Virus record (IMG/VR): IMGVR_UViG_3300028883_000016
Coordinates: 1-45,720 of that record
Length of the DNA: 45,720 nt
Origin: a virus
Reading direction: 5' to 3' (one strand)
Position 1 is the first letter of the stretch, and each line of letters opens with the position of its first letter. A program made the position numbers and the translations under genes. The notes under the pieces were generated by a model. That model ran no database searches, was not told where the DNA came from, and saw only the letters and a list, made by a program, of their open reading frames with translations. Below are positions 1 to 19,474 of the stretch, one piece after another.

Positions 1-126
1 TCTTAGTGCCAGCTGAGAAGATGAAGAGCTAACTGCAGCTCTTACATCCTCTTTCTTTGGATTGCTAGCTCCTCTGTACCACAACGCCGACAGGCTCTCT
101 GATGGATTGCCTCTACGTCTACTCAC
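1..126 (-). CDS. 5' part of the 98-aa gene (duplicate copy at contig end)
   Basis: Read leftward from a GTG at 126-124, this is the same coding sequence as the start of the 98-aa gene at 45719. It is cut by the contig start and is present only because of the 127-bp end repeat. Its GTG lies inside the last codons of the portal gene, in another frame, suggesting translational coupling. Confidence 0.6.
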   Translation of the reverse strand, partial: MSRRRGNPSESLSALWYRGASNPKKEDVRAAVSSSSSQLALR

Positions 127-127
127 C
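1..127. repeat. 127-bp direct repeat of contig ends, left copy
   Basis: Bases 1-127 match 45594-45720 exactly. A repeat of 127 bp equals a common assembler k-mer size, so it most likely marks circular closure of the assembly, not a physical terminal repeat. It holds the 3' end of the portal gene (stop at 119-121) and the first 42 codons of the 98-aa gene that continues at the right end of the window. Confidence 0.9.
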
Positions 128-1885
128 TAAATACTCCTGTGGTGCTGGTGTTTCATTATACTCACCAACTTCTTGTTGAGCTTCTGCCATACGCTTATCC
201 ATTTCAACCTTGTCATCCACAGCGGCGTAGTCAGATATAACACCCTTGTACCTATCTAACGCTAGCGTATTCTCTACAAGTGCTGCAAGCTCTACACTAC
301 TGATGTGCGGTTCGATCTTAGCCCACAGACCAGTGTTGGTCAAACCTGCTAGGTCTTGAATAAGAACACTCTGCTCAGCGAAGTGTCGTGCGCCAATAGG
401 CATGATCTTGCCAGAGGCTGTAAGATTCTCCTTGGAGATCTCAGAGAACGAACTAACACCAAGCTCTGTGTCTAGCGTACGAATAATCTCACCTGTATCC
501 ATCTTACGGCGAGCAAGCTCAAGCATGCTGTTAAGCAGTGGTTCAAGCAGCATCACCTCGAAGCGTGTGATCTTATCTTGGAAGATACGAGTAGAGGCAG
601 TCATTAACTGCTGCACCTCAAACTTGGTCTTCTCTCCGGGAGTACGAAAACCCATAGCTTCTCTTGGCGCGCCAGCATACTGCTCCATTCTCGATTCGAT
701 AAGTGCGATGTTGTTGTCAGCTTGGATAACACCAGCTAAGGTAGTGCCCATCTCTATAACATCACCGTCGTCACCGATATGAATCTCTGCGCCCGGAGCC
801 CACTCGAAGTCTTGCACGTCACCAATAATCTTCTTAGGTGGGTGAACAAGAAGATCCAAGGCATTAGCCTTAGAGTTCTCTAGGTGGTCAATCCTATACT
901 GCAGCCCAACAAGATTATCAAGAGGGCCCATAGCCCACAAGTTATCAGGGCGTGGACGCCAGCCTACCATATAGATCGGGGCGTGTGATAACCACGACTC
1001 CCATTCACCTTTGTACACAACGCAAGTTCTGTCCATTACCTGAATGCGTTGGTTGCGCAGGACTTCACCTGTGTCAGCATCTACGATGTCTCCCCAGTAC
1101 TCTAGGATCTCAATGGTTTGTGAACCTCTGTACCTTTCAATACTACCGTAACCAGCCTTCAACATGCTCTGGAGTTTTGGTATATCTGACGGAGAGATTT
1201 GACCCATGATAGATCGCAACTCGTTGTGCTTGGCAAGTGCCTTAGCAAAATCCCCTTCATGATCTTTGTCAGCGATACTCTGCGCCGTGCCTAGAGTGAT
1301 TACCTTGCGGATGATCTTATACGTAGAATAAAAGTCAGTAGCAGTAGGATCAAACACAATGTCGTATGGAGAGATGCGGACTGCCGCCGGGCCAACAAAG
1401 CCGGGGATTACTTCCTCGGTTGCTGGATCTACCTTAACTTCGGACACCCACTCCGGCATACTGAATGCCACGCCCCTGCAGATATAATCATACAGAAGTG
1501 CCTCAACAGTAGTACGGAAGCGCGGGTCTCGCGTCTTGGCCTGCATGTACGCCTCGATGATTCCACGAACTTCTTTTAGATCCGCGTCTCTGGTGTAACC
1601 TTCCCATCTCAACCAAGAGTTGTTTGGGAACAGCGCCGAATTATAATTGGCGTGCAGGTTATCCATGATCTGGCAGAGCTTTGGAAGAGTGGTGCTATTC
1701 ATCCACCCGCCATTAGCGTTGCTAGTTGTAGATGTGTCTGTCGCATACAGGTAGGAGTCTAACTCCTCCCACTCACTAAGCTTGCCCTGTCTCTGCTCGT
1801 CCAGAGTCTGCCACTGCTGGCCGATCTGTTCCGCGAGCTTTTCACTTGACAGCAGCTGTTCTATACGTAGCGCTATTTCACGCAT
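119..1885 (-). CDS. portal protein (head-tail connector)
   Basis: 588 aa. The product is the likely portal, the dodecameric ring at the capsid vertex through which DNA is packaged and ejected. Assignment rests on size, on position between large terminase and scaffold/capsid, and on general resemblance to podovirus portals (helix-rich N-terminus, acidic middle, long C-terminal helices, and a region near residue 400 rich in Met-Glu-Gln typical of portal crowns). I chose ATG 1885 because GGAGGAG lies 6 nt upstream; the frame stays open 51 codons further but that part lies inside the terminase gene. The start overlaps the terminase stop by 8 nt. Downstream, the GTG of the 98-aa gene overlaps its end. 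Portal function is a family inference; no catalytic residues exist to check. Confidence 0.8.
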   Translation of the reverse strand: MREIALRIEQLLSSEKLAEQIGQQWQTLDEQRQGKLSEWEELDSYLYATDTSTTSNANGGWMNSTTLPKLCQIMDNLHANYNSALFPNNSWLRWEGYTRDADLKEVRGIIEAYMQAKTRDPRFRTTVEALLYDYICRGVAFSMPEWVSEVKVDPATEEVIPGFVGPAAVRISPYDIVFDPTATDFYSTYKIIRKVITLGTAQSIADKDHEGDFAKALAKHNELRSIMGQISPSDIPKLQSMLKAGYGSIERYRGSQTIEILEYWGDIVDADTGEVLRNQRIQVMDRTCVVYKGEWESWLSHAPIYMVGWRPRPDNLWAMGPLDNLVGLQYRIDHLENSKANALDLLVHPPKKIIGDVQDFEWAPGAEIHIGDDGDVIEMGTTLAGVIQADNNIALIESRMEQYAGAPREAMGFRTPGEKTKFEVQQLMTASTRIFQDKITRFEVMLLEPLLNSMLELARRKMDTGEIIRTLDTELGVSSFSEISKENLTASGKIMPIGARHFAEQSVLIQDLAGLTNTGLWAKIEPHISSVELAALVENTLALDRYKGVISDYAAVDDKVEMDKRMAEAQQEVGEYNETPAPQEYLGE

Positions 1886-3419
1886 TGATGACTCCTCCGA
1901 ATCGTTTGTTATACACCAGCTTAGTGCGGGAAGCCACATCGCGCTTGGCTCGTGGTGCCACAGATATTTCAACGGCTGATGCAAGAGCATCCTTAATGTC
2001 GTCGTGCGCTGGTCGTGCCTGTATGATCTCTTCTTCAAGAAGGTTGGTCAGGCCGCCCTTAGCGTGACGGATAATACCATCTCTGTATCTAATTAACAGT
2101 ATGCTATCTACGCGCTCTTCTTTGGAACCCTGCTTGGCTGTTGGGTTGAAGTCGTCAATGACTAATGACTGCCCCGCCTTACGTACTCTGTCACGCAGAT
2201 CCTTAACAATAATCTTTTGTGCACCAGTAATCTCAGCACGCAGTTTCTTAAAGTTCCAGTAATCGTGACGATTCATGATATGCTCATAGTACACACTGAT
2301 ATCATCAGTCTTGAATCTATCAATGTCAAGCACGTAGATGAAGCCCTCTGGGTCTACACCAACAACTACAAGTGCCGTATAATCCGCCCGCGAACTCAGA
2401 GAGAACGCAAAGTCAATTGCAGCATATATGTTAAGAGGCGCTCCATTATGTGTCCAAGTACCATTAACTTTCTTAATACTTGCTGGCTCATAATATAGGA
2501 ATGCGTCTTTACTCATACGGCTGGATCCAACATCGTTTGGATCATTATAGTACTGAGCATGGAACTGTGTTACGTCTAGGTACTTAGCCTTGATCTTAGA
2601 AAGAACTCTATCATCGAAACCAAAGGACTTTCCATCTTCCCTAACTGTTCTGGGCCAGATGTACAATCCGTCTTCTTCAACAACTCGTTCAAACTTATCC
2701 CACACTGGCACATAGCCTATGATGTTATCCTCTTCGTCGTACTCAGGGATCTTCATCGGCAGCCACTTGCCATAAATATCTAGCGGGTGGTAGCGTGTAC
2801 CGCACGCCTTAGTAAAGCCGCCGGGGTTAAGCACAGACTCAATCTGCGACATTGCTGATTCTACTGTATGTCTACCTGTCTCAGTATAAGCGTTATCAGG
2901 AACCACTACGTCATCTGCGATAACTACGTCCGCGTGCCAACCAGTAGTGTTGGTAGTAAGACCGGCGGCGCTGACCGTATGATCTCGAACACCTTCTTCT
3001 TTACGCTTAGGGTGATCAAGTGAAAATGCCTTAGTCGCCCACTTCTCTCTCTTACCCTCTTCTGAATTAACCATCTCAGGCCAGTACTTCCTGTACTGCT
3101 TACAGGTGATCATATTCTTAATATCGTACAGCTGCTTCTCAGCAAGTTCAGATGTTGCAGAGATATACAAGATTGTAGTCTCTGGATGAGTTGTAATCCA
3201 CCACGCACACCATACAGCAATGCAATGCGACTTCATGTGTGCACGAGGTAGCAGTAGTAATTGGTCTACGTCGTACCGCTGTAACCAGCGAAACACGTCC
3301 TCATGTACCTGACCATACACGCGCATCGGATTAACCAAACACGCGAAGGTGTACAAATCATGCTCCGCAGCAGTGCGAATTATATTCTTTTGTTCTAGTG
3401 CCTCAGAGCGCCTTGACAT
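1878..3419 (-). CDS. terL: terminase large subunit (packaging ATPase/nuclease)
   Basis: 513 aa. Packages DNA into proheads with an N-terminal ATPase and a C-terminal RNase H-like nuclease. A divergent Walker A sits at residues 55-65 (LLLPRAHMKSH: the final KS is present, the usual Gly is replaced), a Walker B at 164-170 (DVVIADD), and a nuclease strand with AAIDFAF around residue 335, followed by DDIKDAL near the C-terminus as the second acidic cluster. Length fits podovirus large terminases. It follows the small terminase gene with a 6-nt gap and overlaps the portal start, so the packaging genes are translationally linked. Confident in function; the packaging type (headful or cohesive) cannot be read from the sequence. 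Confidence 0.93.
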   Translation of the reverse strand: MSRRSEALEQKNIIRTAAEHDLYTFACLVNPMRVYGQVHEDVFRWLQRYDVDQLLLLPRAHMKSHCIAVWCAWWITTHPETTILYISATSELAEKQLYDIKNMITCKQYRKYWPEMVNSEEGKREKWATKAFSLDHPKRKEEGVRDHTVSAAGLTTNTTGWHADVVIADDVVVPDNAYTETGRHTVESAMSQIESVLNPGGFTKACGTRYHPLDIYGKWLPMKIPEYDEEDNIIGYVPVWDKFERVVEEDGLYIWPRTVREDGKSFGFDDRVLSKIKAKYLDVTQFHAQYYNDPNDVGSSRMSKDAFLYYEPASIKKVNGTWTHNGAPLNIYAAIDFAFSLSSRADYTALVVVGVDPEGFIYVLDIDRFKTDDISVYYEHIMNRHDYWNFKKLRAEITGAQKIIVKDLRDRVRKAGQSLVIDDFNPTAKQGSKEERVDSILLIRYRDGIIRHAKGGLTNLLEEEIIQARPAHDDIKDALASAVEISVAPRAKRDVASRTKLVYNKRFGGVINA

Positions 3420-3425
3420 ATCACA

Positions 3426-3929
3426 TTACCTTTTAAGACCTTGAATAAGTTTCAAATCATTCGAGAACTCATTTTCAATCTCAGCTTCTTTCTTAAGCTG
3501 GCCTTGTACTTCTTCTTTGGAGGGCCTGCCCGCTTTACGCTTAGGCTTCCACCCCTCATCAGCTAAGTAACGAGCGGCAGCCATAGCACCTTTGCCGTTA
3601 GCCTTTACCTCTTCGATCTGCGCACCAATGCCTAAACTCACCAACTTGACAGCAAGTTCTTCTTGCCACCCCTGAATCATATTACGTAGCTGCTTGTTAC
3701 TACGCTGTAGTTCTAGCCAGTGCTCGAAGTTCTCAAGATAAGTAGTTGCAAATTTATAACCTGTGGGATCTTCACATGCAACGAAGAGGCGTCTGGCGGA
3801 CAAGTACGTCTTGCCGTCCTTAGTAATATCTTCTGGCTTAGTTGTGAAGATTGCATACCTTTGGTCATCAGTCAGTTCGTAGAACAAAGATTGCGTTAGA
3901 TACTTGCCATTTGCGCCTCTGTATTTCAT
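3426..3929 (-). CDS. probable terminase small subunit
   Basis: 167 aa, directly upstream of the large terminase. Small terminases bind the packaging site and load the motor. The protein is helical and charged, with a basic linker near residues 130-140 (KRKAGRPSKEEV, an AT-hook-like GRP within Arg/Lys) that could contact DNA. ATG 3929 is preceded by AAGGAAATCTT, a good ribosome site. A strong terminator for leftward transcription (3956-3987) lies just upstream, so this gene probably begins a separate late unit or depends on read-through. The call rests mostly on position and length; sequence resemblance alone is weak. Confidence 0.65.
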   Translation of the reverse strand: MKYRGANGKYLTQSLFYELTDDQRYAIFTTKPEDITKDGKTYLSARRLFVACEDPTGYKFATTYLENFEHWLELQRSNKQLRNMIQGWQEELAVKLVSLGIGAQIEEVKANGKGAMAAARYLADEGWKPKRKAGRPSKEEVQGQLKKEAEIENEFSNDLKLIQGLKR

Positions 3930-3955
3930 AAGATTTCCTTAAAAACCAATATTAC

Positions 3956-3987
3956 GAAAAAAAAGAAAAGGGGCGTAGCGCCCCTTT
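3956..3987 (-). terminator. intrinsic terminator after tailspike gene
   Basis: On the minus strand AAAGGGGCG and CGCCCCTTT form a 9-bp stem around a 3-nt loop, followed by a long T tract (TTTTCTTTTTTTTT). It sits 19 nt after the tailspike stop and before the small terminase. Confidence 0.9.
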
Positions 3988-4005
3988 AGGGCATGCGATG
4001 ACGCT

Positions 4006-6258
4006 TTAAAGCTCGTCTATAGTAGCACTCCAGTTCACATCAATTGATTCGGATACAGGAAAATTAGTTGCGTCGTCCGTGGCTATCGACGGCGTCAGCC
4101 CAGTAGCAGTAGCTGTTGCCGCAAGTGCAATACCTATACGATTTCCAACATAGCCTTTGTTAGTGCGCGACATAACTACGTTAGGATTGCGAGGATAAAT
4201 CCATTTGTACACAACTGGAGTTCCTTGAACAGAGGGAGCACTAGTCGAGGTAGTAAGCTGCTCTTGCCCAGACTGCTTTTGCATTCTGTGAGGGAAAGAA
4301 GTGTATGACGAAGCATTATGGTTAGCTAAGAACACAGTAGCAGGGCCGCCACGAGATTTAAGGTTATCAACGATAATAAAATCACTGTCAGCTGTACCAC
4401 TGTTCAGACGGGTAAACAAAACTTGCTGGTATGAGTCTACATCAATCTCTATATCTGAGACCTCTACGTTGATTTTGTGTGTCGATCCTCTGTTTTCTAC
4501 AGTCATTAACGAAGCAGTTGCACCGATATTTCTACCAAAAATACTTCCGCCTTTAACGCTAAGAGTCACATCCCCAATGGTTCTTGTGTCAATTGGAGAG
4601 CTATTTCCTCCAGCATCAATAATGCCGCGACTACCTGTAGACGGATCAATAACAGAATGGAATCTGCAGTTTATTGCGTATAACTCGCCCTCCAAAATCT
4701 CTGATGATAGTATGCACGGCCCCGCCAAAATACTTCCAATTCGGCAGTTAACATAACCATTATTTTTGCCCTGCCAAGTCGCCCCGCCGTATATCTCGCA
4801 ATTAACGTACTGGCTATCTTCGGTGTTACCATGGAAGTCGGCACAGTGTGTACCTGACGTTATGTCGTTACTAAGCGTAATATTTGAGAAGCGTAAGTCT
4901 CTGCACGGCACGGCACAGACATTGGCATCTCCGCCAGTTGTTATCGGGTGGCGGCGCGAGTAGATGTCACCACCAGTAATTCTGATAGTCTGGCTATTAG
5001 TAATAGCTATACCATAATCGTCACCGCCATACCCGCCATTAAAAATAGACGGCTCTATAATTGCACAGTTATATGAGCGCTGTACTGTTATACACGAGTT
5101 ATGTTTATGATTACTTTTGATATTCAAAAGCAGACTATCGCGGCAGAATTCCAAGTCTATTAAGCTGGTTGACACGTCTCCGTTTACTGTTAAGCCACTT
5201 ATATTAACAATAATAGCGTCTAGCCTGTAGACGTTAACATCAGCAATAGCGTAGTCATCGTATAAACCACCAGAAATAAGTGCAGTAGACGCAGATGTCC
5301 TACCAACACGGCAAAACTCTCCGGCAAAATAGTTCGTGCGAAATGTAGACCAGCTCGATTCTGCAGGATTGAAAATTATGAATACGTCATTTGGCTCTAG
5401 CGTTGGCTCGGAATCAAAAACTACAATACGCTCACCTTTTACTGCGTTAGCCCCTAGATTTTGAATCTGCTGTAAACTACCGGAAAACTTAGTCCACCAT
5501 CCTCCAGAAAAGACAGGAGAGGTGCAGTCAATAATAACACCGGGCACAGAGGTTATATTTATGCTTGCGCTGTGCGTAGAGCTTGAAAGGAATTTATAAA
5601 CTCCTGGTACAGAGAAGTGTACGTGTGCTGGAGATGTATTTAAAAGCGCCTGCCAGGCATCTGAATTGTCTGCTGATGATGGCAAAACCCCAAAAGTAGC
5701 GGGGGATACTGTGCCAGAGATAACAGCTTTAGCCTGAAGACCTAAACTTATTAGATCAATAAAAGACCCACCGTCGTCGGTACCTGTTCCGGCAGGAACT
5801 ATTTCGTATACGTTACCACCTCCATCTCCAGCGATAGAATAGCCAAGAGTTTCTACGGTGTCTCCAACACGTAAGTCTGATGCATCTACCAAGTACCGCG
5901 CCTCTGGATCTACACCAGACACCGCATCGAATGTTCTTGGATATGCTTTTAACTTTTCAATCTCATAACTAACAGTACCGGGGTCTCCATCATCAACGTG
6001 AGACAGCTTATCATCATCTGTTGTAAGAACACCAACTGGCACTACTGGAGTACCACCTAAATAAATAGTAGAGGCGCTCAAACGTCTTACATTATTAATG
6101 TCGTTGGAGTTCATATCCAGCTCTTGTTCTAGCTGGTTAGGCTCACCATCAATATTAAGGCGGAACAGTATATTACTATTGATCAACTCCTCAAGAGTGG
6201 AGAAGTTATTATCCAGTCGGGAATCCCCAAAGGATTTAAATAAACTAGCTTTGGACAT
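4006..6258 (-). CDS. tailspike / tail fibre protein with beta-helix body
   Basis: 750 aa. Likely receptor-binding tailspike. The N-terminal ~130 residues (LDNNFSTLEELI, then MNSNDINNVRRL) look like the particle-binding region of phage fibres. From about residue 190 the protein becomes rich in short repeats of Asn, Gly, Ile and Val (for example SINITSVPGVIIDC, IVNISGLTVNGD, LRFSNITLSND), the look of a right-handed parallel beta-helix as in polysaccharide-degrading spikes. The C-terminus (after ~680) is probably a separate trimerisation or binding domain. ATG 6258 follows GAGGTGCATC. The gene is the last in the tRNA-led unit and ends at a strong terminator. Whether it has lyase or hydrolase activity cannot be told. 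Confidence 0.8.
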   Translation of the reverse strand: MSKASLFKSFGDSRLDNNFSTLEELINSNILFRLNIDGEPNQLEQELDMNSNDINNVRRLSASTIYLGGTPVVPVGVLTTDDDKLSHVDDGDPGTVSYEIEKLKAYPRTFDAVSGVDPEARYLVDASDLRVGDTVETLGYSIAGDGGGNVYEIVPAGTGTDDGGSFIDLISLGLQAKAVISGTVSPATFGVLPSSADNSDAWQALLNTSPAHVHFSVPGVYKFLSSSTHSASINITSVPGVIIDCTSPVFSGGWWTKFSGSLQQIQNLGANAVKGERIVVFDSEPTLEPNDVFIIFNPAESSWSTFRTNYFAGEFCRVGRTSASTALISGGLYDDYAIADVNVYRLDAIIVNISGLTVNGDVSTSLIDLEFCRDSLLLNIKSNHKHNSCITVQRSYNCAIIEPSIFNGGYGGDDYGIAITNSQTIRITGGDIYSRRHPITTGGDANVCAVPCRDLRFSNITLSNDITSGTHCADFHGNTEDSQYVNCEIYGGATWQGKNNGYVNCRIGSILAGPCILSSEILEGELYAINCRFHSVIDPSTGSRGIIDAGGNSSPIDTRTIGDVTLSVKGGSIFGRNIGATASLMTVENRGSTHKINVEVSDIEIDVDSYQQVLFTRLNSGTADSDFIIVDNLKSRGGPATVFLANHNASSYTSFPHRMQKQSGQEQLTTSTSAPSVQGTPVVYKWIYPRNPNVVMSRTNKGYVGNRIGIALAATATATGLTPSIATDDATNFPVSESIDVNWSATIDEL

Positions 6259-6266
6259 GATGCACC

Positions 6267-6902
6267 TCAGTCATAAAGCTCGATTGTTAGAGGGCCCTGA
6301 TACCAAGTGGCCGTTGTAACTAATCTTGTCGGGCCAGTTGTATCTTCGTTAATTATGCGATACATATAAACGCTGTTCTTCCACAACACACGTTCAACCC
6401 CTGCTGCAAATGTTTCTCTTACAACACCACGATTTCCTAGAGATGTTGTGCCAAGCGAGTGGACTTGCGGGCCAACCGGAGTACCAGCAGAAGATACTGT
6501 GGCTCCTGCAATAATGGAGAAGTCTTGGGGATTGGCGTTCTCATCGTTATAGTTATAAATGGTTTGCGCAGTACCACCAGTGTAAACCGGATCGCGGAAC
6601 CACTGTGTACTTAGTCCTGCTGATTCAAACTCATTTAGGATATCCTTCATTAGGATATTGTAATCACCTACCACAACAATAATGTCAAGCGCCGCACCAG
6701 CGGCAAGTGTCGGAAGATAAATAGACCCAAGGAACTGTGACCCGGTCTTGGAGTTATTAGAAGTGAAGGGCTCAGTCACAAAAGCCTCTTGTCCAAATAC
6801 CATATCCTTAGATGGCGTAACAGGAAACTTTACGTCATCATCTGCACTAACTGAATTCTTTAGAACATGGTTGATGAGGTCCGGAGTTGATGTGCGAGCC
6901 AT
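6267..6902 (-). CDS. putative structural protein next to tailspike
   Basis: 211 aa, no family recognised. The protein is rich in Gly, Thr, Ala and aromatic beta-prone stretches (LAAGAALDIIVVVGDYNIL; LGTTSLGNRGVV), with few charged runs, as in small virion or fibre-associated proteins. It begins at ATG 6902; the frame continues 14 codons upstream but without a better ribosome site. It ends 8 nt before the tailspike start, so the two are co-transcribed and may interact, for example as an adaptor or head fibre. Function is inferred from position only. Confidence 0.6.
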   Translation of the reverse strand: MARTSTPDLINHVLKNSVSADDDVKFPVTPSKDMVFGQEAFVTEPFTSNNSKTGSQFLGSIYLPTLAAGAALDIIVVVGDYNILMKDILNEFESAGLSTQWFRDPVYTGGTAQTIYNYNDENANPQDFSIIAGATVSSAGTPVGPQVHSLGTTSLGNRGVVRETFAAGVERVLWKNSVYMYRIINEDTTGPTRLVTTATWYQGPLTIELYD

Positions 6903-7006
6903 AATAACTACCTTGGTAAGTGTGTGCTGAAAAGGGTGGCGCATCCACTGCGCCTGTCGGGTAATTCACAACCAGCACTCAATGAGCGCCCGCTGCCTCC
7001 AATACT

Positions 7007-7204
7007 TTATTCTACCTCAACAAACTCAGTTGTTAGAGATACTAGCTTTGCATAAGCGTCATCATCTATAATGACATAAGCCACATGGTCTTTGCCTATA
7101 CCAACTGTTGCCATCTTATGGCCCTCAGCCAGCGTGATAACTCTTGGAGCCTCAGCAAGACTAACCTTGCTCAAAAGTATGTCAAGTATAACCGCTTCAT
7201 TCAT
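7007..7204 (-). CDS. small hypothetical protein
   Basis: 65 aa, acidic C-terminus (TTEFVEVE), no recognised domain. It is the first coding gene after the three tRNAs and is likely on the same transcript. ATG 7204 is preceded by GAGAGTC. About 100 nt separate it from the next gene; that spacer holds no clear ORF. Confidence 0.55.
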   Translation of the reverse strand: MNEAVILDILLSKVSLAEAPRVITLAEGHKMATVGIGKDHVAYVIIDDDAYAKLVSLTTEFVEVE

Positions 7205-7226: not shown

Positions 7227-7303
7227 TGGCACCCCCAATAGGGTTCGAACCTATAACCTACGGTGTAGAAGACCGCTGTTCTATCCAATTGAACTATGGG
7301 GGT
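7227..7303 (-). tRNA. tRNA-Arg (anticodon TCT)
   Basis: 77 nt on the minus strand including an encoded CCA. Acceptor ACCCCCA pairs with TGGGGGT; the anticodon loop CTTCTAC reads TCT (AGA codons); the T loop TTCGAAC is canonical. It is last of three tandem tRNAs, 5 nt after tRNA-Trp. Confidence 0.95.
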
Positions 7304-7308
7304 ATTAC

Positions 7309-7383
7309 TGGCGGCCTAGTGAGGATTTGAACCCCAACCACAAGGTTTTGGAGACCTGTATGCTACCGTTACAACACTAAGCC
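7309..7383 (-). tRNA. tRNA-Trp (anticodon CCA)
   Basis: 75 nt on the minus strand with encoded 3' CCA. Acceptor GGCTTAG pairs with CTAGGCC (one G-U). Anticodon loop CTCCAAA gives CCA. The anticodon stem has a C-U mismatch at its base (27-43) and the D stem is weak, so it is slightly degenerate, but the T arm is intact. Confidence 0.92.
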
Positions 7384-7391
7384 ATTTTAAT

Positions 7392-7467
7392 TGGTGCATC
7401 CCCGTGGTATCGAACCACGTCCTCCAGCTTTTCAAACTGGCGCTTCTACCTAGTTAGCTTGAGATGC
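7392..7467 (-). tRNA. tRNA-Phe (anticodon GAA)
   Basis: 76 nt on the minus strand with encoded CCA. Acceptor GCATCTC pairs with GGGATGC (one U-G). Anticodon stem CCAGT/GCTGG with loop TTGAAAA gives GAA. First gene of the leftward late unit, about 100 nt downstream of the promoter element at 7574-7606. Confidence 0.95.
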
Positions 7468-7573: not shown

Positions 7574-7606
7574 TCATATACTAGCTTAGTCAAATAATTG
7601 TGACAT
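7574..7606 (-). promoter_or_regulatory. promoter element for tRNA/late unit (TGTCACA-N9-CTAAGCTA type)
   Basis: The minus strand reads ATGTCACAATTATTT, two bases, CTAAGCTA, then GTATATGAG. Two other copies at 18190-18220 and 27820-27850 keep the same bases and spacing upstream of operons. Transcription would run leftward into tRNA-Phe. It is either a phage sigma promoter or a sigma70 promoter (GTCACA-17-TATAT-like) with a bound activator. Confidence 0.8.
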
Positions 7607-8121: not shown

Positions 8122-8134
8122 GCTCTTTAACAAT
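8122..8134 (+). promoter_or_regulatory. rrn-like boxA1
   Basis: GCTCTTTAACAAT matches the boxA of enterobacterial rRNA leaders (TGCTCTTTAACAA), which binds NusB-NusE for antitermination. It begins within a few bases of the P1 start. Confidence 0.8.
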
Positions 8135-8286
8135 ATGATCTGAATCACCCTTGCCCGTGGTGGGCGTGTCTGAGCCTAGTCAGTAGAAAGGCGTTAAACC
8201 CACAACCACACGTGACATTGTGAAAGGCTTAGTGTACTGGCAATGTGTTAGTTGCTATGACCGGAAACATAAAAGCATATAGGGTG

Positions 8287-8330: not shown

Positions 8331-8343
8331 GTTCTTTAACAAT
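8331..8343 (+). promoter_or_regulatory. rrn-like boxA2
   Basis: GTTCTTTAACAAT, differing from boxA1 at one base; this variant also resembles boxA in other gammaproteobacterial rRNA leaders. It lies about 10 nt after the expected P2 start. Confidence 0.8.
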
Positions 8344-8502
8344 TTGGGCAGTTCTTTTAGGTGGTGGATGCTATAGCTGTATTGCTATAACGCTGGCTGT
8401 GATTAGTTATTGACCGCTTACACTATACGACTATGCCAGATGGCTTTGGTATGAGAGAGACGCGACTAGACGAATCGTGACCTATGGGACACGTGTATTT
8501 AG

Positions 8503-8584: not shown

Positions 8585-8597
8585 GCTCCTTAACAAT
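8585..8597 (+). promoter_or_regulatory. rrn-like boxA3
   Basis: GCTCCTTAACAAT, one base different from boxA1. It is followed by a GACAG/CTGTC hairpin (8607-8625 region) and then the leader that ends at the terminator at 8849. Confidence 0.75.
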
Positions 8598-8848
8598 TTG
8601 TAATCGTGACAGACTGACAACCTGTCATGCGTGTTCTTAACAGAACCAGTCTATCTGTGTATTGCACCGTAGGTGTGTAGCATAGCTGGGAGACTGTGAA
8701 CCCATTAGTTGCAAGAGATGGGGGAGTCGTCCGTGAAATACCAGCCACTACAAAAGCAGTATTCCCATAGACTTATAGTAACTGTTTCAGTGTTCACACG
8801 TTAAAGAGAAAAGCCGAACTGTTCAAAGGATGCAACTACATATATACG

Positions 8849-11804: not shown

Positions 11805-11940
11805 AGTAGTGCGCTCACCAAGTAAAGTTTATTGGTGGGTGGTACAAGAGGATGACCCCACGCACCCCATCGTTGTGTGCTCTCGTAAATGGGAAGCCCA
11901 ACAGGAGCGTGATCAATTAACTAAAAGTCTGGAGCTTTAA
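11791..11940 (+). CDS. small hypothetical protein, GTG start
   Basis: 49 aa. The GTG at 11791 lies 7 nt after AAGGAG, inside the end of the preceding gene (14-nt overlap). The sequence has aromatic beta-like character (SKVYWWVVQEDD) and a charged helical tail. The good ribosome site and tight spacing to the next gene (1 nt) support it. Confidence 0.5.
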   Translation: MVRLKVVRSPSKVYWWVVQEDDPTHPIVVCSRKWEAQQERDQLTKSLEL

Positions 11941-11941
11941 T

Positions 11942-12160
11942 ATGAAGAAAGGTCAACGTGTTAAGAGTCTTACTGGTAAGACAAAAGGTATGGTTGGTGT
12001 AGCGTCCCAGTGCATTGGTGCTACTGGTAGCGTAGTGCGGGTGGCAGTAACCTTTAGCTATGGCATTGGCAAGCGCACCTACTGGTTCAACCCTGAGAAC
12101 TTGCGGGTACTTAAAGATGGCAAAGCTAACAGCCCTTATGCTGGGGGTACTGCTACTTAG
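11942..12160 (+). CDS. small basic SH3/KOW-like protein
   Basis: 72 aa. The beginning (KKGQRVKSLTGKTKGMVG) and the later beta strands (GSVVRVAVTF; TYWFNPENLRVL) resemble a small SH3-type barrel such as KOW domains, which often bind RNA or transcription complexes. This is a resemblance by pattern only. Its last 44 nt overlap the lipoprotein gene in another frame. Confidence 0.6.
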   Translation: MKKGQRVKSLTGKTKGMVGVASQCIGATGSVVRVAVTFSYGIGKRTYWFNPENLRVLKDGKANSPYAGGTAT

Positions 12161-12247: not shown

Positions 12248-12634
12248 ATGAAAGATACAGATCTATTTGCTGTGTACGGAAGTCTTCGTAATGGCTTCGG
12301 GAATCATGGCATTATCGCACAGTTCAGCCCTGAACTAGTTTCTGTAGAGGCTTTGCATGGGTGGAAAATGGTTTCTATGGGGCCTTTCCCTGCCATTTAT
12401 AAGTCTAATGATCAGGAAGACTATGTGGTTGTTGAGGTGTACTCAGTACCAGCTGAGCTACACTCTCAAGCAGCGCAGTCTCTTGACTGGTTGGAGGGGT
12501 TCCCCGACTTCTATGACCGTGAGCTGGTAGACACAGACCACGGCAAGGCGTGGGTGTACTTCCGTGAAGAGCACGAGGTGCGTGGTCTTACTCCTGTTGA
12601 GTCCGGCGATTGGGTGGAATATTATGGTGCCTAA
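12248..12634 (+). CDS. gamma-glutamylcyclotransferase-like protein (GGCT/AIG2 fold)
   Basis: 128 aa. GGCT-fold enzymes release 5-oxoproline from gamma-glutamyl amines and peptides. The substrate-binding loop VYGSLR is at residues 9-14, PAIY at 48-51, and LDWLEGFPDFYDR at 79-91 carries the probable catalytic Glu (E83) in the place expected for this family. Length is usual. It is embedded between the CCG paralogs, 1 kb before the amidoligases, as in other phage and bacterial amide-ligation clusters, where it may edit or release gamma-glutamyl linkages. Fold is secure; substrate is unknown. Confidence 0.88.
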   Translation: MKDTDLFAVYGSLRNGFGNHGIIAQFSPELVSVEALHGWKMVSMGPFPAIYKSNDQEDYVVVEVYSVPAELHSQAAQSLDWLEGFPDFYDRELVDTDHGKAWVYFREEHEVRGLTPVESGDWVEYYGA

Positions 12635-13208
12635 ACTTATTGGTACAGAGACTGACGGCAGACAAGTGCGGTCAGTAACTACAACCAGAACTTATTCTAT
12701 TGGAGATAAGTTTGTGTTGGTTGAGGTGGAGCGTCCAAATGGCCGCACAGATATTACACTGGCGTACATCTCTAAGGGAAAGCCGCCTCTGGATGTTGCT
12801 ACAATTACGGTCACGAACTGCTTTTCTTGCTGTGGTGCTTTCGCAGTGTCTAGCCCGTGGCTGGCTAACCAGCGCGTATTAAATACAGCGAACCTTGATG
12901 TTAAGGAGGTGGTAAACACTATTATTAAAGGTGCCTTTGATGTGTACGACATCACTTACATGGTGCAGGTTGACCGCATTGGTCACAAGCTCAGCACGGT
13001 GGAGGGGGCGGTTGCTGAGAGAGGGCGGTGGGGAATTTTCGTAGACAACTACGATGGAACCATTACTCAGTTCCGCAACAGTCACAGAAATGTAGTGCCT
13101 AACCACTCGTCGGTACTTACTGGCATCGCGTTCGTAAATGATAAGGCTATGGTTGGTGGCACTTACCGTAACTATACTGGATCTTACAAAAAAGGTACAC
13201 TACAATGA
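12624..13208 (+). CDS. CCG-motif paralog B
   Basis: 194 aa. It shares with the next gene FSCCGA, AVS-PWLANQR, EVVN and MVQVDR, and even 17 identical bases coding for the WLANQ region. N-terminal ~65 residues are unlike the other paralogs (beta-rich, Arg/Thr/Val). ATG 12624 overlaps the cyclotransferase end by 11 nt after a GGTGGA site; the longer frame upstream is not needed. No transmembrane segment. Function unknown; close physical coupling to cyclotransferase and ligase suggests shared work. Confidence 0.7.
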   Translation: MVPKLIGTETDGRQVRSVTTTRTYSIGDKFVLVEVERPNGRTDITLAYISKGKPPLDVATITVTNCFSCCGAFAVSSPWLANQRVLNTANLDVKEVVNTIIKGAFDVYDITYMVQVDRIGHKLSTVEGAVAERGRWGIFVDNYDGTITQFRNSHRNVVPNHSSVLTGIAFVNDKAMVGGTYRNYTGSYKKGTLQ

Positions 13209-13675
13209 CAGTTAAATTTATCATTAAAGGCGCACTTCCTGGGAGATATGAACTGTTTGCTAATGAAACGCTCGTACTATGTATGAACGTGGCGTCAGCA
13301 TTCAGCTGCTGTGGCGCGCTCGCCGTGTCTGACCCTTGGCTGGCTAACCAGCGGGCTCTTGAGCCTATCGGATTAACCCAATCCGAAGTAGTAAACAGTG
13401 GCATACAACAACTGCTCCGTCACTTCGGTGTGTCTGCTTTGGTGCAGGTTGATCGTCTTTGTTGTTTGGGAGTGAAGAATGATTTCCGCATTGGATCAGA
13501 GCCCGGCCCATGGTCTGACATTGTAAGCCTGTGGGACGGCAAGTTTACTGAAGGTGATCTTCAGTTCCAGAATGTTAGCGAGGGAGACACTGCCCTTTCT
13601 ATGTTTGCATTCATTGATGAGTATGCTATCACTGAAGATAGCAGTCAACACCCTTATAAAGTAACTAAACAGTAG
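13205..13675 (+). CDS. CCG-motif paralog C
   Basis: 156 aa, starting at an ATGA overlap with paralog B. FSCCGALAVSDPWLANQRAL is at residues ~34-53, then SEVVN, FGVSALVQVDRLCC, a GPW segment, and near the end SMFAFIDEY. Compared with B it lacks the extra N-terminal part, so the shared core is about 130 residues starting just before the CC pair. The CCG and WLANQ blocks are the family signature. It precedes the first amidoligase by 12 nt. Confidence 0.7.
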   Translation: MTVKFIIKGALPGRYELFANETLVLCMNVASAFSCCGALAVSDPWLANQRALEPIGLTQSEVVNSGIQQLLRHFGVSALVQVDRLCCLGVKNDFRIGSEPGPWSDIVSLWDGKFTEGDLQFQNVSEGDTALSMFAFIDEYAITEDSSQHPYKVTKQ

Positions 13676-13687
13676 TAGGTGACTATC

Positions 13688-14473
13688 ATGTCTGACAAAA
13701 TTAAACTTGTATCTCTAGGTGCAGACCCTGAACTATTCCTTCGTGATGTAGCAACAGGTGAATTTGTGCCAGCGACTGGCCTTCTTGGTGGCAGTAAGGA
13801 CTCTCCTCGCCCGGTTAATAAAGGCGCTGTTCAAGAAGATAATGTACTCGCTGAGTTTAATATCGTTCCGGCCACAGATGCTCGCGCCTTCGTTGATAAC
13901 ATCATGACTGTACGTGAAGAGCTGAATAATATGGTTCGTCCGTATGATCTTACTACCTTCGTAACGTCCAGTCATATCTTTACTCACGATGCTCTGAAAG
14001 AGGCTGGCCCGATGGCGTTCGAGTTTGGCTGCGACCCAGACTTCAACGCATGGCTTGGTGGTGAGGTTAATCCTAAACCTGCATCCACCACTGACCTACG
14101 TACTGCCGGAGGTCACGTACACTTCGGCCTCGAAGGTGCCGACCTCGACATTAATCGTTTCATCCGTGTATGTGATGCTACACTGGGTGTTGTTGATGTA
14201 CTTACAGACCCCGAAGGTGCTGCACGGCGCGCCCTGTATGGCTGCGCTGGGGCGTATCGTCCAAAGCCATACGGTGTTGAGTACAGAACGCTGAGTAATG
14301 CGTGGCTGTCTGACTCGGATGCCATTGATCGTACATACCGCCTGTCGGAATACGCAGTGTCATTGTACAACTCCGGCTTTGATCCTAAACCTTCCATCCG
14401 TCAAGTAATTAATAGTGGTGATCGACAAGCGGCGCACCACGTGTACGCTGGACTACATCTTGGGAGAGTATAA
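13688..14473 (+). CDS. COOH-NH2 ligase type 2 (GS-like amidoligase)
   Basis: 261 aa. Members of this glutamine-synthetase-fold family are predicted to join a carboxylate to an amine using ATP. Visible family marks: LGADPELF (residues 10-17), QEDNVLAEFN (49-58), GGHVHFG (141-147) and VEYRTLSNAWL (197-207); the Glu, Asp and His in these blocks correspond to metal and ATP ligands. ATG 13688 follows TAGGTGACTATC; GTG 13679 in frame is an alternative. It leads the ligase genes, 2 nt before the 201-aa gene. Phages related to phiEco32 carry similar proteins. Substrates are not known. Confidence 0.88.
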   Translation: MSDKIKLVSLGADPELFLRDVATGEFVPATGLLGGSKDSPRPVNKGAVQEDNVLAEFNIVPATDARAFVDNIMTVREELNNMVRPYDLTTFVTSSHIFTHDALKEAGPMAFEFGCDPDFNAWLGGEVNPKPASTTDLRTAGGHVHFGLEGADLDINRFIRVCDATLGVVDVLTDPEGAARRALYGCAGAYRPKPYGVEYRTLSNAWLSDSDAIDRTYRLSEYAVSLYNSGFDPKPSIRQVINSGDRQAAHHVYAGLHLGRV

Positions 14474-14475
14474 CA

Positions 14476-15081
14476 ATGAAGCTAGTACCACTGGCTGGGT
14501 TTGAAACCCTACCCACTGCTCATGCTTGGGTAAATTACTTTGACTATCGTGTCTTGGGTGCACTAATGGTACTTGACGAGGACAAGGTAGTTATGGTAGA
14601 TGCTGTAGAACGGGACGGTGCGCGTATAGTAGTGACGGTCTTGGAACTAACTGGCCGCCGCGTAACTATCCCGCCAGAAGAACTGCACGAACGCCTAATG
14701 TTCTGGAAGCCTGAGCATGGGTACTACAACTCCCCAGCTGGCTTGTTAAAAGTGGAGGCGACTGATGTGGGGCGGGGGTATCAGCAGGGAATCCGCACTA
14801 ATTACCTACGTATCAGAGGAGTTGAGACTCAAATAGAATTGCGCGAGTCTTTCCGTAGCTTGTGTCAAATGGTATTTGATAACATCTCCACGTTTAGCAC
14901 TATCACTGAGGCACGAGAGTCTGACAACTTTGTGGCGATCACCCGTCACATTATAGGCAATGCTCGCGGTGCTATTGTTATGGGCGAGCGATCTATTACT
15001 AACTGGGATGCGGCCATGGCCGACGAGGATATTATTACTGACATCGAATTTGAAAGGGGGGATATTCCATGCCTAGTTTGA
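14476..15081 (+). CDS. unknown protein between the two amidoligases
   Basis: 201 aa, not recognised. The N-terminal half is beta-rich (ALMVLDEDKVVMVDAVERD), the C-terminal half mixed, ending in an acidic stretch (ADEDIITDIEFERGD) and CLV. No signal or membrane segment. It begins 2 nt after the first ligase and overlaps the second by 13 nt, so its translation is tied to both. Position makes it a candidate scaffold, carrier or acceptor protein for the ligases, though nothing in its sequence shows this. Confidence 0.65.
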   Translation: MKLVPLAGFETLPTAHAWVNYFDYRVLGALMVLDEDKVVMVDAVERDGARIVVTVLELTGRRVTIPPEELHERLMFWKPEHGYYNSPAGLLKVEATDVGRGYQQGIRTNYLRIRGVETQIELRESFRSLCQMVFDNISTFSTITEARESDNFVAITRHIIGNARGAIVMGERSITNWDAAMADEDIITDIEFERGDIPCLV

Positions 15082-16034
15082 TTGGTGACTTCGTAAATAT
15101 GCGCCACCCAGACCACAAAAATGTCGAGTCAACTGACAGCTTAGTGAGTGACGCTTACGTAGGTGTTGAAGTTGAGCTGGAGAATGCGTCTTTGCGCAGT
15201 GGCATCAGAATGTGGGAGATGCACGAAGAGGGTAGCTTAAAGAACGACGGGCGCGAGTGGGTATTCGCTCGCCCTTATGCAGGTGAGGATGTGGTAGCAG
15301 CAGTCAGCAACCTTGTCAGTGCATACGAAGGTAAGCAGGTTGTGTGCGGCCCGGATGGGTCAGTGCATGTGCATGTTGACGTGACTGATCTAACTATGGA
15401 TCAGCTGTTCCGTATGCTCAATCTGAGCTTTATGTTCGAGCCCCTGCTGTTCGATTGGATGAGTCCTGAACGAGGAACCAACCAATTTTGTCAGAAGCTT
15501 GGCAATAATTCACGGCGAGCCAGTTCAATTTGCAATGCTATTGCTACTGGTACTACTACTGGCGATGTTAACGGCGCAGTGGTAGCCCTGAGTAATCAAT
15601 CGTACAAGTATTCCGCCACCAATACATCACGTCTTCGTGATCTAGGAACGGTAGAGTACAGATTCCACCGCTCCTGCTGCGATTACGACGGGCTTATTCG
15701 CTTGATCAACGCTGTGTGTTGCCTGAAAGAAGCCGCTCGTGATACCCGCTGGGATGCAATCTCCCCTCACCGTGATGTTAAAGGGCGCACAGCAGCCTCA
15801 GTAATCATGCAGGTGTTTGGCAGTGTGATGGACGTAGAAGATTGCTCTATGTTTAAGGACGCTTTAGAGGAGGGCATTCACACCATCCGACAACTGAGTC
15901 TTCGTACCCGACGGCGCATTGATCGTCGTGAACAGGCGGGGTTTGTTGATCATCCACCTCGCCAAGGCACCACTGCACCACCGCGTCCTACGTGGGATGC
16001 TAATCCAGCAGATCTTTTCCAACCAGTAGTTTAA
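15069..16034 (+). CDS. amidoligase (Amidoligase_2 family, GS-like fold)
   Basis: 321 aa. Second, distinct GS-fold ligase. Motifs: GVEVELE (residues 32-38), EGSLKNDGREWVF (54-66), HVHVDV (100-105), and LGTVEYRFH (192-200), which match the metal- and ATP-binding strands of the family. The C-terminal ~45 residues are Arg- and Pro-rich and probably disordered. It overlaps the 201-aa gene by 13 nt. Together with the first ligase, the amidotransferase and ATP-grasp protein it forms a predicted peptide- or amide-forming pathway. Family call is firm, reaction inferred. Confidence 0.85.
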   Translation: MPSLIGDFVNMRHPDHKNVESTDSLVSDAYVGVEVELENASLRSGIRMWEMHEEGSLKNDGREWVFARPYAGEDVVAAVSNLVSAYEGKQVVCGPDGSVHVHVDVTDLTMDQLFRMLNLSFMFEPLLFDWMSPERGTNQFCQKLGNNSRRASSICNAIATGTTTGDVNGAVVALSNQSYKYSATNTSRLRDLGTVEYRFHRSCCDYDGLIRLINAVCCLKEAARDTRWDAISPHRDVKGRTAASVIMQVFGSVMDVEDCSMFKDALEEGIHTIRQLSLRTRRRIDRREQAGFVDHPPRQGTTAPPRPTWDANPADLFQPVV

Positions 16035-16047
16035 AGGTAAATTAATT

Positions 16048-17367
16048 ATGTGTGGTATTGTAGGCGTAATTGGAGCACTGTCTGCTCCTAGAATCAAGCT
16101 GTTTAAGCACATGCTAGTTGCTGATGTAGTCCGTGGAAAGCACTCTACAGGTGTGTTTTCCATTGACAAGAAGGGCGGCATGTCTTATGTTAAGCGCGCA
16201 GTTAACGGCGGTCGCTTTGTGATGGATGATAATATCGACGAACTCCCTAAAGGTTGGGAGTCTAACTCTCGCTGTATCATTGGTCACAACCGTGCGGCTA
16301 CCGTAGGATCAGTTACAACAGACAACGCACACCCATTCATGTTTAATAATGTGGTTGGTGTGCATAATGGTACTCTGGATTCTGAGGCGGGGCTTGTGTC
16401 TACTCTCGCTGACGGTACTAAGATATCTGTGGACTCGCAGAAGATCTACGCAACAATGGATGTGACAAAGCCTGAAGACATTCCTACCCTGTTAGAATCT
16501 CTGGAAGGGGCGTACACCCTCGTGTGGAGTGATACACGGACAGGCCGTATTCACATGGCGAGAAACCGAGAGCGTCCACTGTCATTGGGTCACACCCCAA
16601 GCAGTATTATGCTGGCATCTGAGATGGGCATGCTTACGTGGCTAGTAGAAAAGTCACTGGGCGAGCATGTTAAGCCTGAGTATGAGTCTCTTCCAGTAGG
16701 TGAGATCTGGTCGTTCGATCCTACTGCTGACAACCCCTACTCCACTCTTGAAATTACCAAATTCAAGCCAGCAGCTCCCTTCATTACGTACAAGAGCCTA
16801 TACGGAGGCAATGCGTACTCATCAAAAAAGGACAGTACGACTACGGGTTCGGGTGGGACTGGTAATGTCGTAAAACACGGTCGTGCACTCACTCACCCAC
16901 TTACAGCAGTTGATAAGTTCGTACTGACAGACTTCACATCCAAGTTGTCAGACTATAAAGAGTGCCCGTGGTTATATGACAAAGGCGAATGTAATGAATC
17001 CTATGGTAATCCACTGGACTACGCCCATCGTTACTCGGCTGAGCAGTTAAACAGCCTGCCAGTAGTGTCTATCCTACACCCAATAGCTGCGGAGCTTTCC
17101 AGTCCTACTGGTCTGACGTGCACGTTATTCTGTGTGGATGACGAGGGCTTTGTCTGGGCTCTGCGCTATATGCACTTAGTTAATGTGCACATAGATAAGG
17201 CGTATGTCGTAGACCTGTCCAAGTGCCATCAGAAGTCATGCTATATCATGACATCAAGCACAGGAGCACGAGGTATAAGCTGTTCCTGCGAAGTTATTAC
17301 TGGCATCTGTGATTATCAAACACTTTATGCCCCCGAAAATAAAGATGACTCTGGAGTACCAGCATGA
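16048..17367 (+). CDS. class II glutamine amidotransferase with Cys-rich C-terminal extension
   Basis: 439 aa. The Ntn-type glutaminase domain occupies residues 1 to ~230: Cys2 of MCGIVGVIG becomes the N-terminal nucleophile after Met removal; HNRAATVG (~75-82), HNGTLDS (~108-114) and DSQKIYATM (~130) are the glutamine-binding and oxyanion blocks. It hydrolyses glutamine to release ammonia. A Ser/Gly/Thr linker (~275-290) leads to an unknown domain of ~150 residues with many Cys (CPWLYDKGEC, CHQKSC, SCSC), perhaps metal-binding. No synthetase or phosphosugar isomerase domain is fused, so the acceptor partner must be another protein, likely the ligases beside it. Stop overlaps the next ATG. 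Confidence 0.9.
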   Translation: MCGIVGVIGALSAPRIKLFKHMLVADVVRGKHSTGVFSIDKKGGMSYVKRAVNGGRFVMDDNIDELPKGWESNSRCIIGHNRAATVGSVTTDNAHPFMFNNVVGVHNGTLDSEAGLVSTLADGTKISVDSQKIYATMDVTKPEDIPTLLESLEGAYTLVWSDTRTGRIHMARNRERPLSLGHTPSSIMLASEMGMLTWLVEKSLGEHVKPEYESLPVGEIWSFDPTADNPYSTLEITKFKPAAPFITYKSLYGGNAYSSKKDSTTTGSGGTGNVVKHGRALTHPLTAVDKFVLTDFTSKLSDYKECPWLYDKGECNESYGNPLDYAHRYSAEQLNSLPVVSILHPIAAELSSPTGLTCTLFCVDDEGFVWALRYMHLVNVHIDKAYVVDLSKCHQKSCYIMTSSTGARGISCSCEVITGICDYQTLYAPENKDDSGVPA

Positions 17368-18173
17368 GTATCAACAGAATCCGAATTGTCCCATACAAAA
17401 TGACATCTGCTACTGCAAATGCCCTGCAAACGTGGCTACGTGCCAATCTACCGGACGGTGCACAAAGGAGTGTGCTACGTGTACGAACTGACGGGCGGTA
17501 TGCCCCGCTCGATGATGACATGTTGATCAACTGGGGCTGTAATTCCCTGCCTGAAAAGTTTGGCGGTGTAGGATTGCTACTAAACCACCCAGACATCGTG
17601 GCACGTGCATCAAACAAGTCAGCAGCATTCGCTGTGTTTAAGGAGGCAGGCGTATCTACTCTGGAGACTACGAGTGACCCTGCTGTTGCTGATACGTGGC
17701 TCGCAGATGGAGAAGTGGTGGTTGCCCGCCGACTACTCCGAGCATCTGGTGGTCGCGGTATAGAGTTGTGCACTCCAGAAGGCATGGATCGTGTGGTCAA
17801 AGCACCTCTGTACACCAAGTACATTAAGAAGGCAGCTGAGTACCGAGTGCATGTCCTTCCTAACGGTTCAATCATCCTCAACCAGAAGCGAAGAAAGGCA
17901 GATGTTCCAGATGATGAGGTTGACTGGAAGATTCGTAACCACGACCGTGGCTGGATCATGGCACGAGATAACGTAGATCCCTGCCCTGCTGCTGAGGCCG
18001 AGGCTGTTAAAGCAATCGAAGCTCTGGGACTGAACTTCGGCGCAGTCGATGTGATCTACAATGCTCACCGAGATGCAGCCTACGTTCTTGAAGTTAACAC
18101 AGCTCCCGGCCTAGAGGGCTCATTAGTTGATGCGTATGGACAGGCGTTGATTGAGGTTATGTTACAAAACTAA
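17364..18173 (+). CDS. ATP-grasp ligase (RimK-like)
   Basis: 269 aa, translationally coupled to the amidotransferase by an ATGA overlap. ATP-grasp enzymes activate a carboxylate as acylphosphate and join it to an amine. N-terminal part (residues 1-90) is the substrate lid; a Gly-rich loop RASGGRG lies near 131-137; KKAAEYRVHV near 153-162; the metal-binding end reads NFGAVDVIYN...YVLEVNTAPGLEG (~218-248), with Glu and Asn ligands. Length is close to short RimK/TTL-like ligases. It closes the cassette; about 100 nt follow with the promoter of the sigma-like gene. Confidence 0.9.
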   Translation: MSINRIRIVPYKMTSATANALQTWLRANLPDGAQRSVLRVRTDGRYAPLDDDMLINWGCNSLPEKFGGVGLLLNHPDIVARASNKSAAFAVFKEAGVSTLETTSDPAVADTWLADGEVVVARRLLRASGGRGIELCTPEGMDRVVKAPLYTKYIKKAAEYRVHVLPNGSIILNQKRRKADVPDDEVDWKIRNHDRGWIMARDNVDPCPAAEAEAVKAIEALGLNFGAVDVIYNAHRDAAYVLEVNTAPGLEGSLVDAYGQALIEVMLQN

Positions 18174-18189: not shown

Positions 18190-18220
18190 ATGTCACAATT
18201 ATTTTCCTAAGCTATATAAT
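18190..18220 (+). promoter_or_regulatory. promoter element upstream of sigma-like gene (TGTCACA-N9-CTAAGCTA type)
   Basis: ATGTCACAATTATTT, TC, CTAAGCTA, then TATAAT at 18215-18220. The first 15 bases are identical to those of the minus-strand element at 7592-7606. GTCACA-17-TATAAT also fits a sigma70 promoter. The region up to the gene has the direct repeat ATTGTATGG twice (18219 and 18244). Confidence 0.8.
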
Positions 18221-18276: not shown

Positions 18277-18804
18277 ATGAATACAAACGCTATCATTGAT
18301 CAGTTCTCCCCATTGATCTATAGAGTAAGTCATACAGTATCTAAGCACCCCAAAGTGCTGGATGATAACGCAGTGAGTACTGATGATGTTATACAGCAGT
18401 GCTTTACAGAGGCGCTGGATGTAATCCGGTACTATCGTGAGGGAGGTGTGTCACTTAAACTGTGGCTGCAAGTTAACCTTGAGCAGCGCATGAGTAAGTG
18501 GGCACGCTCACTCGGCACAGTCTCTACCGCTCCAATATATGATGAGTCAGACATAGATGAGGAAGATAAAGAGCCTCTCTATGAGGACGATCCTACCATC
18601 CGTATGGATGCCGCGCGCATCCTGTCACTACTGCCAAAGTCACATGCAGAAACACTACGCATGATGTTTGGTATTGATCTGGAATCCCCACTAAGCCTAG
18701 AAGGCATCTCCAAAGTACGAGGAATATCTGTTTCCGAGGCCCGCCGCTTTACTTTCCACACAATCAACATGGCACGTGCATTGTCAGAAGGACGTTTATC
18801 ATGA
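18277..18804 (+). CDS. ECF-like RNA polymerase sigma factor
   Basis: 175 aa. Region 2-like helices at residues ~1-80 (LIYRVSHTV, DVIQQCFTEALDVI, then a basic stretch LEQRMSKWARSL that would hold the -10), an acidic linker (DESDIDEEDKEPLYEDD, 89-105) and a region 4-like helix-turn-helix at ~110-170 (LLPKSHAETLRMMFGI...LEGISKVRGISVSEARRF). Size equals small ECF sigma factors. phiEco32 encodes a sigma-like factor for its late genes, so the analogy is apt. Its own promoter shares an element with the late tRNA unit and the nucleotide operon, suggesting self-activation. ATG follows AAAAGGATAAGAC. Confidence 0.78.
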   Translation: MNTNAIIDQFSPLIYRVSHTVSKHPKVLDDNAVSTDDVIQQCFTEALDVIRYYREGGVSLKLWLQVNLEQRMSKWARSLGTVSTAPIYDESDIDEEDKEPLYEDDPTIRMDAARILSLLPKSHAETLRMMFGIDLESPLSLEGISKVRGISVSEARRFTFHTINMARALSEGRLS

Positions 18805-19199: not shown

Positions 19200-19225
19200 C
19201 TTCTAAGCAAGTAAGGTAGATAGTA

Positions 19226-19474
19226 ATGTGTATATATAACCACATTTATAAAAGAGTTGAGTATCCGAGGGAGCGTGGGTATAGGATGGAGCCTTACCCA
19301 CTTCCAAGATACATGTACATAACTATTGAGAAGGGAGACTCAAAGCGATTAATCGTTCACTCTCGCATACACGTTAATGAAGAAACAAAAGTAGGGCCTT
19401 CCTACAGTAACGAGCTCTCTGATGCAGAGATCATAAAAGATCTAAGTACAGAAATAGCATGGAGATTCTTATAG
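19226..19474 (+). CDS. small hypothetical protein
   Basis: 82 aa. N-terminal third is rich in Tyr, Pro and Arg (EYPRERGYRMEPYPLPRYMY), followed by a beta-strand pair and an acidic helix. ATG 19226 is preceded by AAGGTAGATAGTA. It ends 1 nt before the next gene. No family is recognised. Confidence 0.55.
   Translation: MCIYNHIYKRVEYPRERGYRMEPYPLPRYMYITIEKGDSKRLIVHSRIHVNEETKVGPSYSNELSDAEIIKDLSTEIAWRFL

Follow-up and report, generated by a model that had tools for sequence, protein, structure and literature searches.

Three shared intergenic elements and a predicted sigma-like factor point to a probable phage-controlled regulon in a Zobellviridae podovirus

Why does the sequence element at 7574–7606 (minus strand) recur ahead of two other operons of the same phage, and what reads it? 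The initial annotation of the window (the whole stretch of 45,720 nucleotides that was analysed) had described three copies, at 7574–7606, 18190–18220 and 27820–27850, and had taken them for the code of a regulon under phage control that links middle with late genes. We find the three copies, exact, at these places and on the strands given, and consider that sites 1–3 probably serve as promoters for the host RNA polymerase once it carries an ECF-like sigma factor encoded by the phage, the predicted product of 18277–18804.

An exact 127-bp repeat at the ends of the window (1–127 and 45594–45720), whose record is classed as linear, indicates that it represents a complete circular map. By its sequence the phage is a podovirus of the Zobellviridae, and its TerL is 54–62% identical to those of ICP2, VP41s3, T5S1, CW02 and T2S2. 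No RNA polymerase gene, including one for a T7-type single-subunit enzyme, was found among the profile-searched ORFs of this complete genome; several small ORFs have no family match. The late operon, on the minus strand, descends from 7.5 kb to base 1 and continues across the join from 45.7 to 33.2 kb. The units and elements discussed below are as follows.

119–7204, minus strand: late operon, part 1 (small ORFs, tail proteins, TerL, portal)
33228–45719, minus strand: late operon, part 2, past the circular join (scaffold, capsid, tail, internal virion protein)
7227–7467, minus strand: tRNA-Phe, tRNA-Trp and tRNA-Arg, the first units 3′ of site 1
18277–18804, plus strand: putative ECF-like sigma factor of 175 aa, proposed reader of sites 1–3 (profiles, RpoD region 4 alignment, fold search)
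18801–27752, plus strand: replication operon 3′ of site 2 (primase, DnaB-type helicase, DNA polymerase, 5′–3′ exonuclease, HNH/homing endonuclease)
27867–32966, plus strand: nucleotide operon 3′ of site 3 (ribonucleotide reductase large and small subunits, ThyX-type thymidylate synthase, endolysin-like ORF)
7574–7606, minus strand: site 1, putative late promoter (exact motif); −35-like ATGTCACAA at 7598–7606, CTAAGCTA at 7582–7589, −10-like GTATAT at 7576–7581
18190–18220, plus strand: site 2, putative middle/autoregulatory promoter before the sigma-like gene and the replication operon (exact motif); ATGTCACAA, CTAAGCTA at 18207–18214, TATAAT at 18215–18220
27820–27850, plus strand: site 3, putative promoter before the nucleotide operon (exact motif; 23/30 with both other sites); ATGTTACAA, CTAAGCTA at 27837–27844, ATAATA at 27845–27850

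Two further features of these arms were recorded. The ORF at 26830–27279 (plus strand), at the end of the replication operon, matches homing endonuclease families, and 12248–18173 (plus strand) carries gamma-glutamyl cyclotransferase, COOH-NH2 ligase, amidoligase, glutamine amidotransferase and RimK-like ATP-grasp genes, a type of conserved module that is found in most of the sigma-carrying relatives.

The motif ATGTYACAA-N3-TTT-N2-CTAAGCTA has exactly three exact copies in the window (7582–7606 minus, 18190–18214 plus and 27820–27844 plus), which share 20 identical positions across 25 bases, and none of 100 dinucleotide shuffles contains an exact match. The earlier statement that there are none elsewhere also held in a genome-wide scan: no fourth place lies within three mismatches, so that there are no equal matches inside genes, and the next best place agrees at 15 of the 20 motif positions compared with all 20 at sites 1–3. 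When intergenic 30-mers of the window were compared independently of the motif, sites 1 and 2 formed the top pair (25/30 matches), followed by sites 2/3 and 1/3 with 23/30 each; when this intergenic DNA was dinucleotide-shuffled 60 times, no pair exceeded 23. Non-coding sequence makes up ∼9% of the window by a simple ORF call and contains all three sites, each oriented into its operon, as had been proposed for the tRNA/late unit, the sigma-like gene and the nucleotide operon. Conservation is longer than the initial annotation gave, with TACNNN immediately 5′ of the ATG common to sites 1–3, and its boundary at 7574 also takes in the GTATAT that matters in relatives (see below). A scan of 2.9 million viral contigs for the exact motif returned no match, which suggests that this exact form is restricted to the window phage and any close kin outside the collection.

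The ORF at 18277–18804 matches phrog_1740 (RNA polymerase sigma factor; 1.5e-5) and Pfam Sigma70_r2 (E = 0.0048), and its C-terminal part aligns to RpoD region 4 (LRMMFGID/LRMRFGID; E = 0.085). The AlphaFold2 model has a pLDDT of 59, and owing to this low confidence the predicted structure is taken as support only; the order of its helices is that expected for sigma2 followed by sigma4. All of the 50 PDB matches listed in a fold search with the model are sigma factors or sigma-containing complexes, headed by ECF sigmas (best E 4.8e-3, probability 0.97). Taken together, the weak profile matches and the model identify the product as a divergent two-domain sigma-like factor. It shares the sigma2–sigma4 plan with bacterial ECF sigmas such as E. 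coli sigmaE and M. tuberculosis SigH, which are among its top fold matches, but differs from them in being phage-borne, in a similarity that lies below curated cut-offs and in a region 4 whose sequence is nearer to that of RpoD. No relative of this protein came up in direct searches, and profiles built from the sigmas of related phages reach it only at E values of 0.006–0.013; the sigma is much less conserved than the late promoter of the same phage.

If the elements are phage-sigma promoters, sigma-carrying relatives are expected to hold their own repeated element at equivalent places. Starting from the short gap before the scaffold/capsid genes, copies were sought genome-wide; each was scored with a matrix specific to its phage, and reversed sequences served as the control. 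Each of eight sigma-carrying relatives (1.253.O, CW02, T2S2, T5S1, T4S1, KZY1-1027853, GP100 and CVT22) holds two to four copies of its own element, usually before the scaffold/capsid genes, the helicase–sigma–polymerase operon or the late operon.

Vibrio phage 1.253.O, TGACACAA-N16-GTATAT: 465+ (before the late operon), 10929+ (before scaffold), 34826− (before helicase and sigma)
CW02, TGTAGA..CTATAT: 34002− (scaffold), 7086+ (before the helicase–sigma–polymerase operon), 46087−
T2S2, ATGACCCC..GGTA: 40119−, 12055+, 3659−
T4S1, GTAACAA-N16-GTATATA: 42415−, 12265+, 13390+, 5597−
T5S1, TGTAACAA-N16-GTATTAT: 619−, 12001−
KZY1-1027853: 44789−, 5798−
GP100: 43067−, 5471−

A further variant occurs three times in CVT22, and Pecta shows two copies, of which one is clear and the other weaker. 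PA11, O4 and KZY1-1938105 carry a sigma and show a single element copy. Accepted copies score 17–42 versus control maxima of 11–17, the lowest being CW02 7086+ (17.3 versus its own control maximum of 10.7). The best intergenic repeat exceeds every shuffle in four sigma-carrying phages (the window phage, 1.253.O, CW02 and T2S2). That of T5S1 does not, yet its two copies score 40.0 and 29.1 versus 11.5, and the failure is probably owing to crude gene calls. Counterparts of site 2 precede the helicase–sigma operon in 1.253.O, T4S1, T2S2 and CW02. These elements at equivalent places in sigma-carrying Zobellviridae support the proposed regulon of middle and late genes, whose function we infer.

The elements track the presence of the sigma gene among the relatives compared. 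Neither phrog_1740 nor the profile of the relatives' sigmas detects a sigma in ICP2, VP41s3 or a third genome (G001), and the best intergenic repeats of these three are not above chance. Vibrio phage ICP2, also of the Zobellviridae, resembles the window in its structural genes (TerL 60% identical) and arm layout, but differs in these respects and in that sigma-70-like promoters are annotated, one of them just 5′ of the scaffold position.

To place the window among its relatives, a family matrix was built from one pre-scaffold element of each of nine relatives, with the window excluded. Site 1 ranks first of 91,376 positions at 18.6 bits, compared with 13.4 for the next position and 14.2 for the reversed window. 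Sites 2 and 3 rank 1528 and 871; they are missed because TATAAT and ATAATA stand where GTATAT is expected, of the family layout they share just the −35 and CTAAGCTA blocks, and they are therefore counted as members on the strength of their identity to site 1. When each relative was left out in turn, its own element ranked between 1 and 92, and the matrix is thus imperfect although it carries information. The layout kept across relatives is a TGTNACAA-like block, 16 bases and a GTATAT-like block; the CTAAGCTA of the window occupies the same position, just 5′ of the −10, as CTMAACYG/CTCAACAG of 1.253.O and T5S1. The element is thus best read as bipartite, with a −35-like TGTYACAA, N16 and a −10-like block (GTATAT), CTAAGCTA being a conserved block just 5′ of the latter. 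An earlier matrix from four relatives, chosen partly for the ACAA block, was biased and was replaced by the nine-phage matrix. Scoring the window consensus directly on the relatives gave chance matches only; the shared layout emerged only from de novo repeats and alignment on the pre-scaffold gap.

The −10 regions bear directly on whether the host sigma suffices. In a sigma-70 scan site 2 reads GTCACA-17-TATAAT (10/12) and site 3 reads GTTACA-16-AATAAT (9/12), as they would if the three sites were ordinary host sigma-70 promoters that are alike by chance. We regard this as very improbable: the region has about as many matches of such quality as chance would give (29 found, 27.4 expected), site 1 is absent from the scan, so that a TTGACA-16/18-TATAAT-like match is not common to all three sites, and 20 identities over 25 bases would be left unexplained. 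Moreover, the strong sigma-70-like promoters of this phage, in the early region near 8.1–8.3 kb (8085 and 8287, the latter TTGACA-17-TATAGT), look different. The same −10 hexamers at sites 2 and 3 would suit a MotA-like phage activator working with host sigma-70 polymerase, with ATGTYACAA as the activator box and the A/T-rich −10 read by sigma-70, and such an activator would also accommodate a sigma far more divergent than the late promoter. It is nevertheless an unlikely reading, since the elements go with the sigma gene and none is seen in relatives where no sigma was detected, the second block is conserved too and in relatives is mostly not TATAAT (GTATAT, GTATTAT, CTATAT; GTC in Citrovirus) and site 1 has no sigma-70 match. 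Repeated sites for replication, packaging or a repressor would account for the finding that some copies in relatives lie in the early region against the early genes (T2S2 3659−, CW02 46087−, T5S1 12001−, T4S1 5597−), which is unexpected for a simple gene-proximal promoter. However, the two blocks have a fixed spacing of 16 bases and the second is TATA-like, the orientation is constant, into the late and replication operons and often 23–135 nt 5′ of a gene, and the antisense copies themselves face the late arm, so that a non-promoter role is hardly credible.

Promoters for a phage sigma remain the preferred reading, and several observations weigh against it. Sites 2 and 3 have different −10 blocks and neither is recovered by the family matrix; the window sigma is very divergent from those of the relatives although the late promoters are alike; and PA11, O4 and KZY1-1938105 have a sigma with one copy each. 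At site 3 a start ∼7 nt past ATAATA, at about 27857, would fall just beyond, and hence exclude, the Shine–Dalgarno GGAGG (27852–27856), whereas a start set by CTAAGCTA acting as the −10, at about 27851, would retain it.

On the sigma-promoter reading, host sigma-70 polymerase would first transcribe the early genes from the promoters near 8.1–8.3 kb, and initial expression of the sigma gene would come either from read-through or from site 2, whose −10 (TATAAT) is sigma-70-like. The phage sigma would then sustain its own gene and the replication operon through site 2 by autoregulation, raise nucleotide synthesis through site 3 and switch on the tRNA/structural unit through site 1. These steps are deduced from the placement of the elements.

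In the early leader, a boxA-like GYTCYTTAACAAT, which resembles the antitermination boxA of rRNA leaders, occurs three times on the plus strand (8122–8136, 8331–8345 and 8585–8599), two of the copies lying just 3′ of the strong promoters at 8085 and 8287. CW02, T2S2, PA11, T2S1, KZY1-1938105, Pecta and O4 each have one or two copies of this kind within the early leader or close to it. These copies suggest that early transcripts may come under host Nus-factor antitermination.

In seven relatives an element copy lies inside the early region, oriented opposite to the early genes and facing the late arm; the window has no early-region copy of this orientation.

T2S2 (L008): 3659–3691, minus strand
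CW02 (L007): 46087–46119, minus strand
T5S1 (L005): 12001–12033, minus strand
T4S1 (L136): 5597–5629, minus strand
KZY1-1027853 (L135): 5798–5830, minus strand
GP100 (L129): 5471–5503, minus strand
L132: 44144–44176, plus strand

It is possible that long antisense late transcripts arise from these copies. Tentatively, and with more doubt than for the window itself, one may envisage a sigma regulon throughout the Zobellviridae, in which each sigma would have a co-evolved two-block promoter before the sigma/replication operon and before the capsid genes. In no fewer than seven of the relatives, the backward-pointing early-region copy would let late transcription begin far upstream and run antisense through the early genes, which would thereby be shut down.

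A phage sigma regulon of the same logic and with a different motif has been described for phages 7-11 and phiEco32 (PMC4331800). Like the window phage, these are podophages that use host RNA polymerase with their own sigma and have a few well conserved intergenic elements before middle and late genes, the sigma gene included, which were found through pairwise intergenic comparison (PMC4331800). The window likewise combines a sigma-like protein and a low-copy, oriented intergenic element with no phage RNA polymerase gene found. In contrast, the 7-11 motif has a TGATGT core followed by TATA; in that phage the late motif is long and distinct from a short middle one, and an anti-sigma factor is present (PMC4331800). 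TGATGT is absent from the blocks shared in the window, which points to the same kind of system with a different specificity. Within the Zobellviridae, sigma genes are known as CW02 gp21, PA11 gp012, CVT22 gp45 and 1.253.O NVP1253O_36, near helicase/polymerase genes. Their carriers resemble the window in having their own repeated bipartite element before the capsid genes, several also before the helicase–sigma operon, with a version of the motif specific to each phage or genus; the window sigma differs in its very divergent sequence and in a gene that lies 5′ of primase/helicase. In the literature searched, where coverage of subscription papers was small, we found no description of a Zobellviridae sigma promoter. 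Thus, phage sigma regulons are already known, and the specificity seen here and its spread over the Zobellviridae are apparently undescribed.

The proposed regulon would explain, in concrete and testable terms, the passage from early to late transcription in a family of T7-like podoviruses that lack an RNA polymerase, and it offers a set of sigma/promoter pairs that differ in specificity. The cultured members Vibrio phage 1.253.O, Salinivibrio phage CW02, Pseudomonas phage GP100 and CVT22 allow bench tests, which, if confirmatory, would provide compact sigma factors (about 160–190 aa) with cognate promoters. A different intergenic repeat, GGACTACTACTTAGAATAATA, is present in one further genome (G011; IMGVR_UViG_3300025276_000050) at 11903–11932 and 39304–39457 (up to 28/30 identical); it does not fit the layout and was set aside as a family element. 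The sigma-like gene of this genome (31003–31500) is only weakly related to the other sigmas, and its repeat possibly represents another sigma specificity.
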